The notes beneath the pieces are model-generated. The model was not told where the DNA came from, made no database searches, and worked only from the letters and a program-made list of their open reading frames with translations. This document shows, one piece after another, positions 43,949 through 49,665 of a stretch of 64,000 bases of DNA. Numbering within the stretch: the stretch's first letter is position 1; each line of letters begins with the position of its first letter. The stretch is from Hongsoonwoonella zoysiae (GTDB lineage: Bacteria > Pseudomonadota > Alphaproteobacteria > Rhizobiales > Stappiaceae). The stretch is taken from NCBI RefSeq assembly GCF_013266695.1, contig NZ_JABRXF010000001.1:1245736-1309735 (forward strand), written 5' to 3'. A program made the position numbers and the translations under genes.

Positions 43949-45124
43949 TTATCCGCGCGGACGTTCGCCCGTGTAGATGGCGCGGGGGCGGATCTGCTCA
44001 GGCTTCTGGTACTGTTCCAGCGCATGCGCGACCCAGCCCACGAGCCGCCCGGCGCAAAAGATCGATACGCCGGCATGGTCGGGAAGGCCCAGGATGCGCT
44101 GGATGACGGCGAAGGTGAAATCGATGTTCGGGCCGTGGCCGAACAGCGCATTGGCCGATTCCAGAACCTCAGGCAGGAGGCGGGCAAGCGGATGATCGAT
44201 CTCGGCTTCCGCGATCATGTCGATCAGGCAGGCGGCGCGAGGGTCCTTCAGCTGATAGATCCGGTTGCCGAAGCCGGGAAGCGATTCGCCCCGCACCAGC
44301 CGCTCCTGCATCACGGGCTCGATGTCAGCGGCTGTACGGATAGCATCGAGCCAGCCGCCGACGCGTTCGGAAGCCGAACCGTGGCGCGGACCGGAAAAGG
44401 CGCCGAGGCCGGCAATGAGAGCGGCATGCAGCGGCGCGCGCGTGGACGCCGCGCAGCGGACCGCGAACGCACTCGTGTTGAATTCATGGTCTGCCGACAA
44501 CACGAGGGCGGCGCGGAGAAGGTCTATCGACGCGCCATGCCGGATGCCCCAGGCTTTCGCGATCTGCAGATGAACCGGCGCTTCGGAGGGAGCGCCGCAG
44601 ATGAGCGCGGCGACGCCCGACCGAAGCAAGGCAGCCCCCTTGGCGGCCAGCAGGCGGTGGGAAAGCGTATAGGCGGCACGATCTATCGCCGGCCACGCGG
44701 CGAAAGCCATCATCACGCGTTCGACCGGGCGAAGGTCCGGAAGGTTGAGATCGGGTGCCGTCGGCGGCGGGCTTGCGAAAGGATCATTCGTGCAATCCCA
44801 AAGCAGGGTGGCGATGGCCTCCAGGCTGGAAGAACGCGCGAGCTGTACCGCGGGCTGGCCGCGGTAGACCGGCCCGTCTTCGGTGATCAACGTGAGCTGC
44901 GTTTCAAGGGTCGGACCCGGCATGGAGGGCCGCTCCGCGATAGCTTCGCCGGTGTCGCGCCTGTTGCGCAACGCCCTGACATCCTCTGCGTGGTAGCGGC
45001 GCTGGCGGCCGGGACCGGGGATCGAGCGCACCAGGCCGCGACTGACATAGGCATAAAGTGTCGCCGGGCGAACGCCGAGTTCGATCGAAGCCTCGCGGGC
45101 GGAAAGGTAGATCGGCGATGTCAT
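43949..45124 (-). CDS. HTH-citrate synthase fusion protein
   Basis: A 391-residue protein. Residues 1-60 form a MerR/excisionase-like HTH (YLSAREASIELGVRPATLYA, RQRRYHAEDVRALRNRRD); the remainder is a citrate synthase fold. Active-site positions: GPRHG His248 is present, the second catalytic histidine (normally GFGHRxY) is Asn287 in GFGNRIY, Asp335 is present in NIDF, and the C-terminal RPRAIYTG arginine is present. With Asn at the second histidine, normal citrate synthase activity is doubtful. The frame is open further, but ATG 45124 starts the HTH. It is divergent from a second citrate-synthase-like gene. Confidence 0.82.
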   Translation of the reverse strand: MTSPIYLSAREASIELGVRPATLYAYVSRGLVRSIPGPGRQRRYHAEDVRALRNRRDTGEAIAERPSMPGPTLETQLTLITEDGPVYRGQPAVQLARSSSLEAIATLLWDCTNDPFASPPPTAPDLNLPDLRPVERVMMAFAAWPAIDRAAYTLSHRLLAAKGAALLRSGVAALICGAPSEAPVHLQIAKAWGIRHGASIDLLRAALVLSADHEFNTSAFAVRCAASTRAPLHAALIAGLGAFSGPRHGSASERVGGWLDAIRTAADIEPVMQERLVRGESLPGFGNRIYQLKDPRAACLIDMIAEAEIDHPLARLLPEVLESANALFGHGPNIDFTFAVIQRILGLPDHAGVSIFCAGRLVGWVAHALEQYQKPEQIRPRAIYTGERPRG

Positions 45125-45127
45125 GTG

Positions 45128-45159
45128 TTGATTGTATTTATCAATATTGACGATATCAA
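45128..45159. promoter_or_regulatory. AT-rich repeat operator between the citrate-synthase pair
   Basis: Within the 85-bp divergent gap, half-sites TTGAT and ATCAA recur: TTGAT-N7-ATCAA at 45128-45144, then TTGA-N5-TCAA at 45147-45159. These repeats sit immediately upstream of the HTH-fusion gene and are a natural binding site for its HTH domain, giving autoregulation and control of the partner gene. Inferred from symmetry and position. Confidence 0.5.
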
Positions 45160-45209
45160 CTCCCTTGCCGATTTTCCCGTTCATGAAGCGAAACGGGAAA
45201 GGGAAACCC

Positions 45210-46316
45210 ATGACCGAAGTTTTCAAATCCGGCGGGAATGAGTTGCCCCTCTTTGCCCCGGGGCTTGAGGGGATCATCGCAGCCGAAACGGTACTGAGCG
45301 ATGTCGACGGCGAAGGCGGAAGGCTGACGTTGCGTGGCAGGCCGATCGAAGAGATCGCCGGACGTATGACATTCGAGGAAGCCGCCGCATTACTGTGGCA
45401 AGGATTTGTGCCGGATGAATATCTGTCGCGGCTGCTCGAGCTTTTCGCGCAGGCGAGGCAGGTCGCGGCCCGGGTCGTGGCGACGATGCAATCGTCTCCG
45501 GCGGGCCTTTCCGCCTATGAGTTGATGCGGCTCGGCCTTGAAGCCTTGCCGCTAGACCGTGATCGCAACGAAGCTGTGACGATATCCGGCGCATTGCCTC
45601 ATCTCCTGGCGGCCGCGAACGCGATTTCAACGGGCAGACAGGTTGCTCCGCCCGACCCTTCACTCTCGTCCGCCGAAGACATGCTCCGCCTTCTGACAGG
45701 TAAAATACCTTTGCCGGAGCAGGCCGCCGCGCTCGACCGGTATCTGGTGACTATCCTCGATCATGGTCTCAATGCATCGACCTTCACGGCGAGGGTCATC
45801 GCCTCCACGGGATCGGATATGCGCTCAAGTGTCATCGGCGCTTTCGGTGCGTTGAAAGGTCCGCTGCACGGCGGCGCGCCAGGCCCCGTGCTCGATATGC
45901 TGGATGCGATCGGTACGCCTGAAAACGCCGAAGCGTGGATTGCCGGGGAATTGGCGGCAGGTCACCGTCTGATGGGCTTCGGTCACCGGATTTACAGGGC
46001 ACGTGATCCGCGTGCGGATGTGTTGCGGGATGGCCTCGCGCCATTGCGCGGCAACTCGGAAAACCTGCGAAAGGCCGAAGCCATCGAGAAATCGGCGCTG
46101 GCCGCGCTCGCGCGGCACCGCTCGAACCGGAAACTTGAGACGAATGTCGAATTCTATACCGCTGTCCTGCTTGATGCAGTTGGTATCGACCGCTCGCTTT
46201 TCACGCCGCTTTTCGCGGTCGGGCGGACGGTTGGCTGGTGCGCGCATGTGCTGGAGCAGCGCGCCACGGGCAAGCTGATCCGGCCGATGTCGCGCTATGT
46301 GCCCGAGACGGCCTGA
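45210..46316 (+). CDS. Citrate synthase family protein (partner of the HTH fusion)
   Basis: A 368-residue citrate synthase fold protein without an HTH. Active-site positions: GPLHGG His220 and GFGHRIY His259 are present; the catalytic Asp is Glu314 in NVEFY; the C-terminal arginine of RPRxxYV is Met360 in IRPMSRYV. The protein is shorter than hexameric citrate synthases and close to the short, two-subunit or methylcitrate type. ATG 45210 follows GGGAAAC and begins the conserved region; the frame is open upstream to 45132. A strong terminator follows. Substitutions differ from those of the divergent partner. Confidence 0.82.
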   Translation: MTEVFKSGGNELPLFAPGLEGIIAAETVLSDVDGEGGRLTLRGRPIEEIAGRMTFEEAAALLWQGFVPDEYLSRLLELFAQARQVAARVVATMQSSPAGLSAYELMRLGLEALPLDRDRNEAVTISGALPHLLAAANAISTGRQVAPPDPSLSSAEDMLRLLTGKIPLPEQAAALDRYLVTILDHGLNASTFTARVIASTGSDMRSSVIGAFGALKGPLHGGAPGPVLDMLDAIGTPENAEAWIAGELAAGHRLMGFGHRIYRARDPRADVLRDGLAPLRGNSENLRKAEAIEKSALAALARHRSNRKLETNVEFYTAVLLDAVGIDRSLFTPLFAVGRTVGWCAHVLEQRATGKLIRPMSRYVPETA

Positions 46317-46374: not shown

Positions 46375-47778
46375 CTATCGGTTCGTGATGATTTCCGGCC
46401 CCATCAAGGCATATGGCAGGGATGTGGACAGGAACGGCAGATACGTTACGAGAATAAGGAAGAGGAACAGGATCGCGACGAACGGAAGCGCCGCGCGCAC
46501 GACCTGCACCAGGCTCATGCCCGTGATGCCGGATGTCACGAAGAGGTTCAGCCCGATTGGCGGCGTTATCATGCCGATTTCCATGTTCACCACCATGACG
46601 ATGCCGAGATGAATCGGATCGACGCCAAGCTCGATCGCGATCGGGAAGACGACCGGGGCGACGATCAGGAGAAGCCCCGAGGGTTCCATGAATTGCCCGC
46701 CGAGCAGAAGCAGCAGGTTGACCGCGATCAGGAAGGTGAACCAGTTGAACCCGGCACCCACCATCCAGTCCGTGATGGCCTGCGGGATGCGTTCCGATGT
46801 CAGCACATGGGCGAATAGCAGCGCATTGACGATAATGAACATCAGCATGATCGTCGTCTTGGAGCTCTCGACCAGCACCTTCTTCGTGTCGCCGTGGAAG
46901 CAGCCGGGAATGAATTTCCAGACGATCAGGGCGAGATTGCGCACAAGGCTTTGACCGAAACCTTCCCCCGGTCGGCGCCAGGGCACATCCTTGAGCGGCC
47001 CCATGTCGCGATAGATGAAGACCGCGATGAAGAAGGCGTAGACGGCCGCGACCGCTGCGGCCTCCGTCGGCGTGAACACGCCGCCGTAGATGCCGCCGAG
47101 AATGATGATGATGAGGAAGAGGCCCCAGCCGGCCTCGCGTGCCGCTGCGGCTATTTCGGAGACGCCGGCAAACGGCTGCTTGGGCATGCCCCGAATGCGG
47201 GCGTTGATGTAGATCGCGACCATCAGCATGAGGCCCGCGACGATGCCCGGGACGACACCGGCTAGGAACATGCGCCCTACCGAAACGTCGGTCGCCGCCG
47301 AATAAACCACCATCACGATGGACGGTGGAATGAGAATGCCGAGCGTGCCGGCATTGGCGATGACGCCGGCGGCGAACTCCTTCGTGTAGCCGACCTCGCG
47401 CATGCCGGCGATGGCGATCGTGCCGATGGCCACCACCGTCGCCGGCGATGAGCCGGAAAGGGCGGCGAAGAGCATGCAGGAAAAAACGGCCGCGATGGCA
47501 AGGCCGCCGCGCAGATGACCGACAGTCGATATCGCGAAGCGGATGATGCGCCGCGCCACGCCGCCCGTCGACATGAAGGCCGATGCGAGGATGAAGAAGG
47601 GGATGGCGAGCAGCGTATAATTCTGCGACGCCGTGAAGAGCTGCAGCGCGACGGAGGACATACTGTCCTGCGAGAACAACGCTATGGCGAGAATGCTCGA
47701 CAGGCCGAGCGAAATCGCGATCGGGACGCCCAGGAACAAAAGCCCGAGAACGAGGATGAAAAGGACTGCGGCTTCCAT
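46375..47778 (-). CDS. dctM: TRAP transporter large permease (DctM)
   Basis: A 467-residue membrane protein, the 12-helix ion-coupled permease of a TRAP transporter. FILASAFMSTGGVARRIIRF, LSGSSPATVVAIGTIAIAGM and GTLGILIPPSIVMVVYSAAT are the DctM signatures. It is about 40 residues longer than usual; the extra part is a hydrophilic insertion around residues 260-310 (MGPLKDVPWRRPGEGFGQSL onward) between helices. It is the third gene of dctPQM. Confidence 0.9.
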   Translation of the reverse strand: MEAAVLFILVLGLLFLGVPIAISLGLSSILAIALFSQDSMSSVALQLFTASQNYTLLAIPFFILASAFMSTGGVARRIIRFAISTVGHLRGGLAIAAVFSCMLFAALSGSSPATVVAIGTIAIAGMREVGYTKEFAAGVIANAGTLGILIPPSIVMVVYSAATDVSVGRMFLAGVVPGIVAGLMLMVAIYINARIRGMPKQPFAGVSEIAAAAREAGWGLFLIIIILGGIYGGVFTPTEAAAVAAVYAFFIAVFIYRDMGPLKDVPWRRPGEGFGQSLVRNLALIVWKFIPGCFHGDTKKVLVESSKTTIMLMFIIVNALLFAHVLTSERIPQAITDWMVGAGFNWFTFLIAVNLLLLLGGQFMEPSGLLLIVAPVVFPIAIELGVDPIHLGIVMVVNMEIGMITPPIGLNLFVTSGITGMSLVQVVRAALPFVAILFLFLILVTYLPFLSTSLPYALMGPEIITNR

Positions 47779-47786
47779 GGGTCTTC

Positions 47787-48422
47787 TCAGTCCTTCAGTT
47801 CGTCTTTGTGTTCTGCGACGAGTTCTTCGGCCTCATGCGCGGCGATCATCGTTTCCCGCTCCCCCTTGATGATTGCGATCATCGCCTGCAGGCAGCGGAA
47901 CCCGAACAGTGCAAGACCGATGGGGAGCATGAGGTAGGCGACCCAGCGCTGCACGCGATCCTGGGTGCCGAAAGTCTCCTGGATCAATTCGGGGTAGCGA
48001 AGATCGTCGAGGCCGAAACCGCGCTGGAACATGAAATGCCAATAGCCGAGCGCGCCCGTCTGGCGAAAGCTCGTGCTGACGTCGATGCCGAACAGGCTGA
48101 GCCAGCCGGCATAAAGCAGGATGAGGGCGTAAAGGACGCCGCAGAAGGCGCCGAAGACAGCGATGATGCGGAACGTCTTTTGCGGCAGAAGCCTGATGAA
48201 GGCATCGACACCGAGATGGGAGCCGATCTTGACCCCGTAGCTCATGCCGAAAAGGATGAGCCAGGCGAACAGAATGCGCGTAAGTTCCAGCGCTCCGCCC
48301 CAGCCCGTGTTGAAGCCGTATCGCGCCACCACCTGAGTGAAGGACACGATCGTCATCGCCGCCAGAAGGAGCGCCAGGAAGGTCTCCTCGAAGCGGGTGA
48401 CCCAATTGTCCACCCTATGCAT
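47787..48422 (-). CDS. dctQ: TRAP transporter small permease (DctQ)
   Basis: A 211-residue protein with four membrane helices: LLLAAMTIVSFTQVVARYGF, ILFAWLILFGMSYGVKIGSH, IIAVFGAFCGVLYALILLYA, and a last one near YLMLPIGLALFGFRCLQAMI. This is the DctQ layout; the C-terminal tail is long and charged. ATG 48422 follows GGGGGAGAGG; the longer frame to 48455 has no better support. It lies 8 bp upstream of dctM. Confidence 0.88.
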   Translation of the reverse strand: MHRVDNWVTRFEETFLALLLAAMTIVSFTQVVARYGFNTGWGGALELTRILFAWLILFGMSYGVKIGSHLGVDAFIRLLPQKTFRIIAVFGAFCGVLYALILLYAGWLSLFGIDVSTSFRQTGALGYWHFMFQRGFGLDDLRYPELIQETFGTQDRVQRWVAYLMLPIGLALFGFRCLQAMIAIIKGERETMIAAHEAEELVAEHKDELKD

Positions 48423-48488
48423 GCCTCTCCCCCCGTGCGGATATCGCTCCGGCACAAGCTGCCGGCGAAGAGCATCCGCGACGTTTGT

Positions 48489-48517
48489 GAAAGGCCCCGC
48501 CTCATGCGGGGCCTTTC
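48489..48517 (-). other. Intercistronic hairpin between dctP and dctQ
   Basis: GAAAGGCCCCGC-CTCAT-GCGGGGCCTTTC is a perfect 12-bp stem 30 bp downstream of the dctP stop. Few T residues follow, so it probably attenuates or stabilises dctP mRNA instead of ending the operon completely. Confidence 0.7.
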
Positions 48518-48547
48518 CCGGTCAGTCGTGGTCGGACCGGATTACGA

Positions 48548-49549
48548 TCAGCTGTTGGAGCCGGCGGCGGCGTCGATCAGATCCTTGCCGATGTCGCCTT
48601 CGAACTGATCCCAGACCGGCTTCATCGTTTCGACCCATTTGGCGCGCTGTTCAGGCGTGAGCTCGCGAACGGTGGCGCCGGCCTCGATGATCTTCGCGCG
48701 GTTGCCGGCTTCCTTCTTGGCCACCGCGTCGTTACCGGCCTTCGTCACTTCGTCGACGATGGTCAGGAACTGTGTGCGGGTCTCCTCGTCGAGGCTTTCA
48801 AGCCACTCAGTGGAGGTAACGAGCAAATAGGCGAGCACCTGGTGGTTTGTCTCGGTGATGCCGTCCTGAACCTCGAAGAACTTCTGGGTATAGATGTTCG
48901 ACCAGGTATTTTCCTGTCCGTCGACGACGCCGGTCTGCAGCGCGCCGTAAACTTCCTTGAAGGCGAGCTTTTGGGCGTTGCCGCCGATAGCCTCGATCAT
49001 GGCGACCGCCACGTCGGAGGTCTGTACGCGGAACTTCAGGCCGTTAGCGTCCGACGGCTCGATCAGCGGCTTGTTGGCCGAGAACTGCTTGAGGCCGGAA
49101 AGCCAGTAGCCGAGGCCCTGGTAGCCGACGTCCTGCATCACGTTCAAAAGACCCTTGCCGGCATCGGACTGGGTGAAGTTGCCGACAGCGTTCAGGTCCT
49201 GAAACAGGAAAGGCAGGTCAAACAGGCGATACTTGAGGGTATAGGCCTCGAACTTCGAAAGCGATGGCGCAGCAAGCTGCACATCGCCGAGAAGCAGGGC
49301 TTCCATCACCTTGTCGTCGTCGAAGAGCTGAGAGTTCGGAAATACCTGCATGCAGGCCTTGCCGTCCATCTCCTTGTTGACGCGGTCGGCGAGCATCGTC
49401 GCCGCGTCGCCCTTCGGGTGGCCGGTGGCGGCGACGACGTGGCTGAACTTGATGACCATTTCGCCGTCGTCGCAGCCTTCGCTGGCAACGGCGGGAGCGG
49501 CAAAGGCGATCGATGCGGCCGCCGCTGCGGTCACGACGAATTTCTTCAT
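48548..49549 (-). CDS. dctP: TRAP transporter substrate-binding protein (DctP)
   Basis: A 333-residue periplasmic protein with a signal peptide (MKKFVVTAAAAASIAFAAPA, cleavage after VAS). The mature region IKFSHVVAATGHPKGDAATM, FRVQTSDVAVAMIEAIGGNA (with the carboxylate-binding Arg), EVYGALQTGVVDGQENTWSN is the standard DctP fold. DctP proteins bind C4-dicarboxylates and related organic acids. ATG 49549 has GGAGGAC upstream. Just ahead lies a sigma-54 promoter. Confidence 0.9.
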   Translation of the reverse strand: MKKFVVTAAAAASIAFAAPAVASEGCDDGEMVIKFSHVVAATGHPKGDAATMLADRVNKEMDGKACMQVFPNSQLFDDDKVMEALLLGDVQLAAPSLSKFEAYTLKYRLFDLPFLFQDLNAVGNFTQSDAGKGLLNVMQDVGYQGLGYWLSGLKQFSANKPLIEPSDANGLKFRVQTSDVAVAMIEAIGGNAQKLAFKEVYGALQTGVVDGQENTWSNIYTQKFFEVQDGITETNHQVLAYLLVTSTEWLESLDEETRTQFLTIVDEVTKAGNDAVAKKEAGNRAKIIEAGATVRELTPEQRAKWVETMKPVWDQFEGDIGKDLIDAAAGSNS

Positions 49550-49665
49550 GGATGTCCTCCCAGACATTATCTGCAAATTCGAAGCGTCCGCTGGCCGGAT
49601 AAGTCCCGAACGTTAGATGGGCGACGCTCCGAAAGGCTGAAGGGGTTCAACCGTGCCGAAATGAT

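Follow-up and report, generated by a model that had tools for sequence, protein, structure and literature searches.

A citrate synthase fused to a MerR-like DNA-binding domain as a probable local regulator of a divergent CitA-type citrate synthase gene

Introduction

Why should two citrate synthase genes be transcribed away from each other, one of them with a DNA-binding domain attached to its product? The question is raised by a locus in the window, the 64,000-nucleotide stretch of Hongsoonwoonella zoysiae DNA analysed here. The minus strand (43949-45124) encodes a 391-aa helix-turn-helix protein fused to a citrate synthase (HTH-CS), and the plus strand (45210-46316) encodes, divergently, a 368-aa CitA-type (E-type) citrate synthase, with 85 bp between the genes and start codons at 45124 and 45210, respectively. 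A preliminary description had reported the pair, its strands, the gap and the HTH and citrate synthase domains, all of which are borne out by the open reading frames and Pfam. It had also pointed to Asn287 in the first protein and to Glu314 and Met360 in the second, identities that were read correctly, as replacements of catalytic residues, and had proposed either a heteromeric enzyme or a metabolite-sensing regulator. We therefore asked what each protein retains, what is conserved with the pair, and which of these proposals holds.

Results

The start of the HTH-CS gene was fixed by its homologues, which begin at the ATG at 45124; a longer reading from 45277 was discarded on this ground and because the extra stretch runs into the citA start. 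Residues 1-57 (44954-45124, minus strand) are predicted to form a MerR/BldC-like winged HTH. Pfam recognises a MerR/HTH_17 DNA-binding domain, with HTH_17 at 4e-6 (27.3 bits, cut-off 27) and MerR_1 at 1.5e-4 (22.2 bits, cut-off 21.6); PF00376 MerR scores 20.9, under its cut-off of 28.2. The predicted secondary structure is H-H-E-E-H, with a pLDDT mostly of 83-94. SoxR (E 0.0065) and BldC-type chains (E 0.13 or more) are among the nearest solved sequences, as weak matches, and HTH-CS differs from both in having no coiled coil or Fe-S centre. The protein does not have the composition of the MerR family in the strict sense (HTH, dimerising coiled coil, effector-binding C-terminus); instead, a short low-confidence linker (residues 59-68) joins the HTH to a citrate synthase domain. 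This domain is supported both by profile (PF00285, 2.8e-55, 188 bits, cut-off 27) and by tertiary fold, since residues 64-381 (43982-44935, minus strand) of the AlphaFold model (m1287ab2ed75e, pLDDT 89.5) match PrpC and citrate synthase crystal structures with Z about 33 over 304-318 residues.

The plus-strand protein is a CitA-type citrate synthase by profile (PF00285, 5.3e-101; NCBIfam PRK12350, 385 bits against a cut-off of 332). Its nearest solved chain is B. subtilis CitA (2C6X), and it falls in an E-type clade with an SH-aLRT of 97. Both His residues (H220 and H259) are present, together with E314 in NVEFY, as in CitA-type enzymes. The preliminary description had taken Glu314 (codon 46149-46151, plus strand), at the catalytic Asp position, as a defect. 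However, Glu occupies this position in all 23 divergent partners with complete E-type sequences, and in the CitA proteins of B. subtilis (2C6X) and M. tuberculosis; being shared with these, it defines a clade and not a lesion. Nor does Met360 replace a C-terminal Arg: it follows an Arg-Pro whose Arg358 is the conserved catalytic residue, and a comparison of 73 citrate synthases shows the Met position to be freely variable.

HTH-CS presents a different picture. In the window protein, His248 and Asp335 are present and Asn287 (codon 44264-44266, minus strand) aligns with E. coli His305, so that the triad of a competent citrate synthase (His264, His305 and Asp362, E. coli numbering) is incomplete. 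Across the family, by contrast, the three residues are kept in 100, 95 and 101 of 101 sequences, and Arg314, Arg387 and Arg407 in 101, 100 and 100, which by sequence makes most members catalytically competent; Caulobacter HTH-CS proteins (L086, L112) retain every catalytic residue. Since homologues mostly keep the second His, the earlier argument from missing catalytic residues lapses. All three genomes examined from the window's genus have Asn there, with isolated losses elsewhere; position 305 changed four times on the HTH-CS tree and never in 73 other citrate synthases. This genus-level loss suggests a sensor for which full catalysis is no longer required or was never in use. In the HTH, L23, Y24, V27, S28 and R29 are invariant among 35 homologues. 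The peptide patterns used to find loci in genome contigs included DHE-N-S and HTH segments. In loci found this way, His229, Asn232 and the recognition helix therefore appear conserved partly through selection, whereas the other catalytic positions were not selected. The most degenerate active site seen belongs to an Acidimicrobiales member (L123:3432-4697), with both catalytic His gone (Arg, Met) and one Arg changed to Lys, next to a partner that retains His, His and Glu. In two relatives the gene is decaying, as a 156-aa remnant in G055 and split over two frames in G030 (L046, L040).

HTH-CS occurs in Pseudomonadota, Myxococcota and Actinomycetota, the actinobacterial members resting on two loci. 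The family forms one clade, in which the window protein groups with 52 others (SH-aLRT 100). Partners were tallied by hand over 78 loci. An E-type citA is immediately divergent in 54 of them (two cut by contig ends), so that the pair is conserved together, as the preliminary description required. In eight loci (six Paraburkholderia/Burkholderia, Ewingella and one sphingomonad) the divergent gene encodes a CaiB/BaiF CoA-transferase, assigned by PF02515 for the two scanned and by homology for the remainder. A prpC-type citrate synthase gene lies about 0.8-1 kb off on the divergent side in three Lysobacteraceae loci (prpC was confirmed at L068), and the other 13 loci have another or no known partner. 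Among loci from the operator search described below, prpB is directly divergent in L172 and L176, with prpC next to it in L176. Thus, the divergent gene varies (citA, CoA-transferase gene or prpB-prpC) while HTH-CS and the operator persist, and in Pseudovibrio, Paraburkholderia and Ewingella HTH-CS occurs with no citrate synthase gene close by. Patristic distances of HTH-CS and its partner correlate over 31 loci (r = 0.84), a value consistent with joint inheritance that shared species history alone could also give. On the far side of citA, convergent with it, lies an operon for a TRAP dicarboxylate-type transporter (DctP plus the two membrane subunits, large and small; 46375-49576, minus strand). 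This operon stays next to the locus, even where citA is absent, in the genus and in some relatives, Pseudovibrio among them (L041-L043, L045, L046, L049, L053).

The TTGAT/ATCAA repeats noted earlier between the two genes are real and far above chance. Just upstream of HTH-CS (45127-45151, minus strand) lies a putative operator of 25 bp and three half-sites, GTCAATATTGATAAATACAATCAAC (RTCAA-N2-TTGAT-N7-ATCAAY), which fits the family consensus RTCAATnTTGAT-N7-ATCAAY. It is the sole perfect match in the 4.36-Mb genome and, with three mismatches allowed, still the sole match in the window (shuffle mean 0.19). The consensus or a close form was found in 75 of 99 distinct regions preceding HTH-CS genes of alpha-, beta- and gammaproteobacteria; a slightly different version of the full motif occurs in 72 of the 99, against none in 100 dinucleotide shuffles. 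Taken separately, RTCAA-N2-TTGAY is present in 90/99 and TTGAY-N7-RTCAA in 76/99. When 398 genomes of the phylum were searched blind, 42 perfect matches turned up in 41 of them (reversed control pattern, 2). On inspection of all 42, 40 proved to lie immediately upstream of HTH-CS genes and to point the way these genes do, four of these 40 genomes having also helped to define the motif. The operator is therefore tied to the gene of the presumed regulator, in the manner of a local (autogenous and divergent) one-component system. In a genus containing Pseudovibrio, where citA is missing, the outer half-site is lost and just RTCAA-N2-TTGAT is left at HTH-CS. Upstream of HTH-CS in L072, L079, L097, L103 and L105, which have no known partner nearby, the operator was not found.

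A sigma-70 promoter is predicted for HTH-CS at 45131-45159 (minus strand; TTGATA-17-TACAAT, consensus scan, 1 match against 0.1 expected), and the putative operator overlaps its -10 box and much of its spacer. On the strand of citA, the distal half-site has the sequence TTGAC and is a possible -35 sequence for that gene.

Four perfect operator matches lie away from any HTH-CS gene (L168, L187, L190 and L199) and are either extra targets or chance matches. One of them (L168:2795-2819), which belongs to the two blind-search matches not at HTH-CS, precedes a D-2-hydroxyacid dehydrogenase gene by 57 bp, and another (L199:1501-1525, Paraburkholderia bryophila) stands before a gene 78% identical to it. 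This recurrence suggests that Burkholderiaceae have a second genuine target, and the dehydrogenase gene is, on this sequence evidence, a likely distal target of the operator-binding regulator. Of the remaining two, each chance or a distal target, one has a HemN-like gene close to it (L187:1501-1525, Pseudovibrio axinellae) and the other falls between cupin-like and beta-lactamase-like genes (L190:1501-1525, P. bryophila), the names in both cases being read from sequence.

A pair that is most likely the same has been studied in Caulobacter crescentus, where citB and citC (CCNA_03757/03758) are adjacent. They are described as further citrate synthase genes in a paper in which "helix" does not appear and whose passages on them mention no operator (PMC7083601). 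It gives CitB as 37% and CitC as 32% identical to B. subtilis CitA; in our Caulobacter loci the E-type partner has 36% and HTH-CS 29-34% identity. Because these identities agree, we take CitB to be the E-type partner and CitC to be HTH-CS. In that study, citB rescues an E. coli delta-gltA strain, whereas its neighbour citC fails to do so (PMC7083601). By this identity-based assignment, the published evidence indicates that the CitA-type partner is probably a working citrate synthase.

Discussion

We propose that HTH-CS is a local one-component regulator in which the citrate synthase fold senses an oxoacid, an acyl-CoA or (methyl)citrate, a reading to which we assign a probability of about 0.85 from sequence comparison. 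Comparative genomics strongly supports it. The architecture of the protein, the co-conservation of the pair, the operator and its locality emerge directly from the computations. From the earlier interpretation, the metabolite-sensing regulator thus stands, on the operator, the conserved pair, the single clade, the exchangeable targets and the local targeting, and the heteromeric enzyme falls. We infer that HTH-CS dimerises through its citrate synthase fold, as citrate synthases do; such a homodimer, with its two HTHs, would be a natural reader of inverted half-sites. Bound to the intergenic operator with its three half-sites, it would repress or activate two promoters, its own and the one serving the adjacent acyl-CoA/oxoacid gene, which in the window encodes the CitA-type citrate synthase. 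The preserved active-site pocket would most likely bind a substrate or product of citrate synthase as the effector, and this ligand would alter operator binding. Candidates on the substrate side are acetyl-CoA, propionyl-CoA, oxaloacetate and other 2-oxoacids, and on the product side citrate and 2-methylcitrate. The range of targets (citrate synthase, methylcitrate cycle, CoA-transferase and hydroxyacid dehydrogenase) points to an acyl-CoA/oxoacid ligand. No prpB scored above the family cut-off in this genome, so a canonical methylcitrate cycle was rejected for it and 2-methylcitrate is a less likely ligand here.

The repeats could instead be the site of FNR/FixK or another global regulator, HTH-CS being then an ordinary enzyme with a vestigial HTH. 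TTGAT/ATCAA half-sites do resemble those of FNR, but the spacings here are 7 and 2, never the 4 of FNR, which excludes an FNR box at the operator. Moreover, the sites number roughly one per genome and go with HTH-CS, which is unlike a global regulator, and the invariant HTH residues do not fit a vestigial domain; we give this explanation hardly any credence. A mixed dimer in which each protein supplies the residue that the other lacks seems to us equally improbable. It would account for the complementary residues of the window (N287/D335 in HTH-CS, H259/E314 in CitA) and for the co-conservation of the pair, with the reservation on species history made above. Yet the His-His-Asp triad of a citrate synthase site sits within one subunit, so that residue swapping between subunits would not rebuild the site. 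Furthermore, Glu is normal in active CitA enzymes, and the composite heterodimer was ruled out by the residues kept family-wide, with the second His in 95 and the Asp in all of 101 HTH-CS, and by the HTH-CS genes that have no citrate synthase partner. CitB, CitA-type by identity, also complements gltA alone (PMC7083601).

The regulator might at the same time be a working (methyl)citrate or related synthase that reports the flux of its substrate to the promoter, that is, a trigger enzyme. For this sub-case, catalysis and DNA binding taken together, we consider the likelihood to be low though appreciable. In its favour are the full catalytic set in almost all HTH-CS of three phyla, which a pure sensor would have no need to preserve, so that catalysis could still occur, and neighbours that include prpB-prpC, a citrate synthase and CoA-transferases. 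The absent second His in the window and the four losses of H305 on the tree weigh against it, as does the failure of Caulobacter CitC to complement gltA (PMC7083601). If CitC is the HTH-CS, its residues should make it competent, yet it failed as a citrate synthase in E. coli. Such an outcome would be expected of a sensor, or of an enzyme that makes some other compound, although poor expression could also be the cause.

In B. subtilis, citA has a divergent LysR-type regulator, CitR. That arrangement is like the one in the window, since a CitA-type (Glu) citrate synthase is controlled from a divergent gene, and differs from it in that the divergent gene here is a citrate synthase paralogue with an HTH. 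In Streptomyces coelicolor, two citrate synthase genes (SCO5831/SCO5832, citA3/citA4) share one intergenic region and were studied as MtrA targets (PMC12323332), SCO5831 being termed citrate synthase-like (PMC9739823); the likeness is one of gene arrangement. For the protein, the closest parallel in design is MocR/GabR, where a small winged HTH sits on a complete aminotransferase fold as effector domain (PMC4944035, PMC6917764). There the HTH is of the GntR type, in contrast to the MerR/BldC-like HTH and citrate synthase fold of HTH-CS, and the two kinds of protein share no sequence relation. Enzyme folds used as sensors are thus already known; for citrate synthase combined with this operator, the literature searched contained no precedent. 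That search returned no HTH-citrate synthase regulator; a xanthomonad member may have been described earlier in work on propionate regulons. Suvorova et al. (2012) reportedly found four new transcription factors in the malonate and propionate regulons.

We speculate, at about even odds, that HTH-CS represents a widespread, hitherto undescribed class of transcription factors in which a complete citrate synthase, in most members possibly still catalytic, senses oxaloacetate or acyl-CoA (or methylcitrate), acts through the three-half-site operator, itself conserved across distant lineages, and has been rewired to genes for citrate synthase, the methylcitrate cycle, CoA-transferase and 2-hydroxyacid dehydrogenase. 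If so, citrate synthase would join the enzyme folds recruited as sensors and would supply a genetic signal that directly reports the flux entering the TCA or methylcitrate cycle. It would also correct a common misannotation and account for some of the "redundant" second or third citrate synthases annotated in many genomes, such as Caulobacter CitC. With the operator as a guide, target genes can be predicted and then tested in laboratory strains. A Rugamonas genome carries, besides one HTH-CS (L096), a second (L194:207-2944) with a divergent CoA-transferase-like gene and the operator between them.
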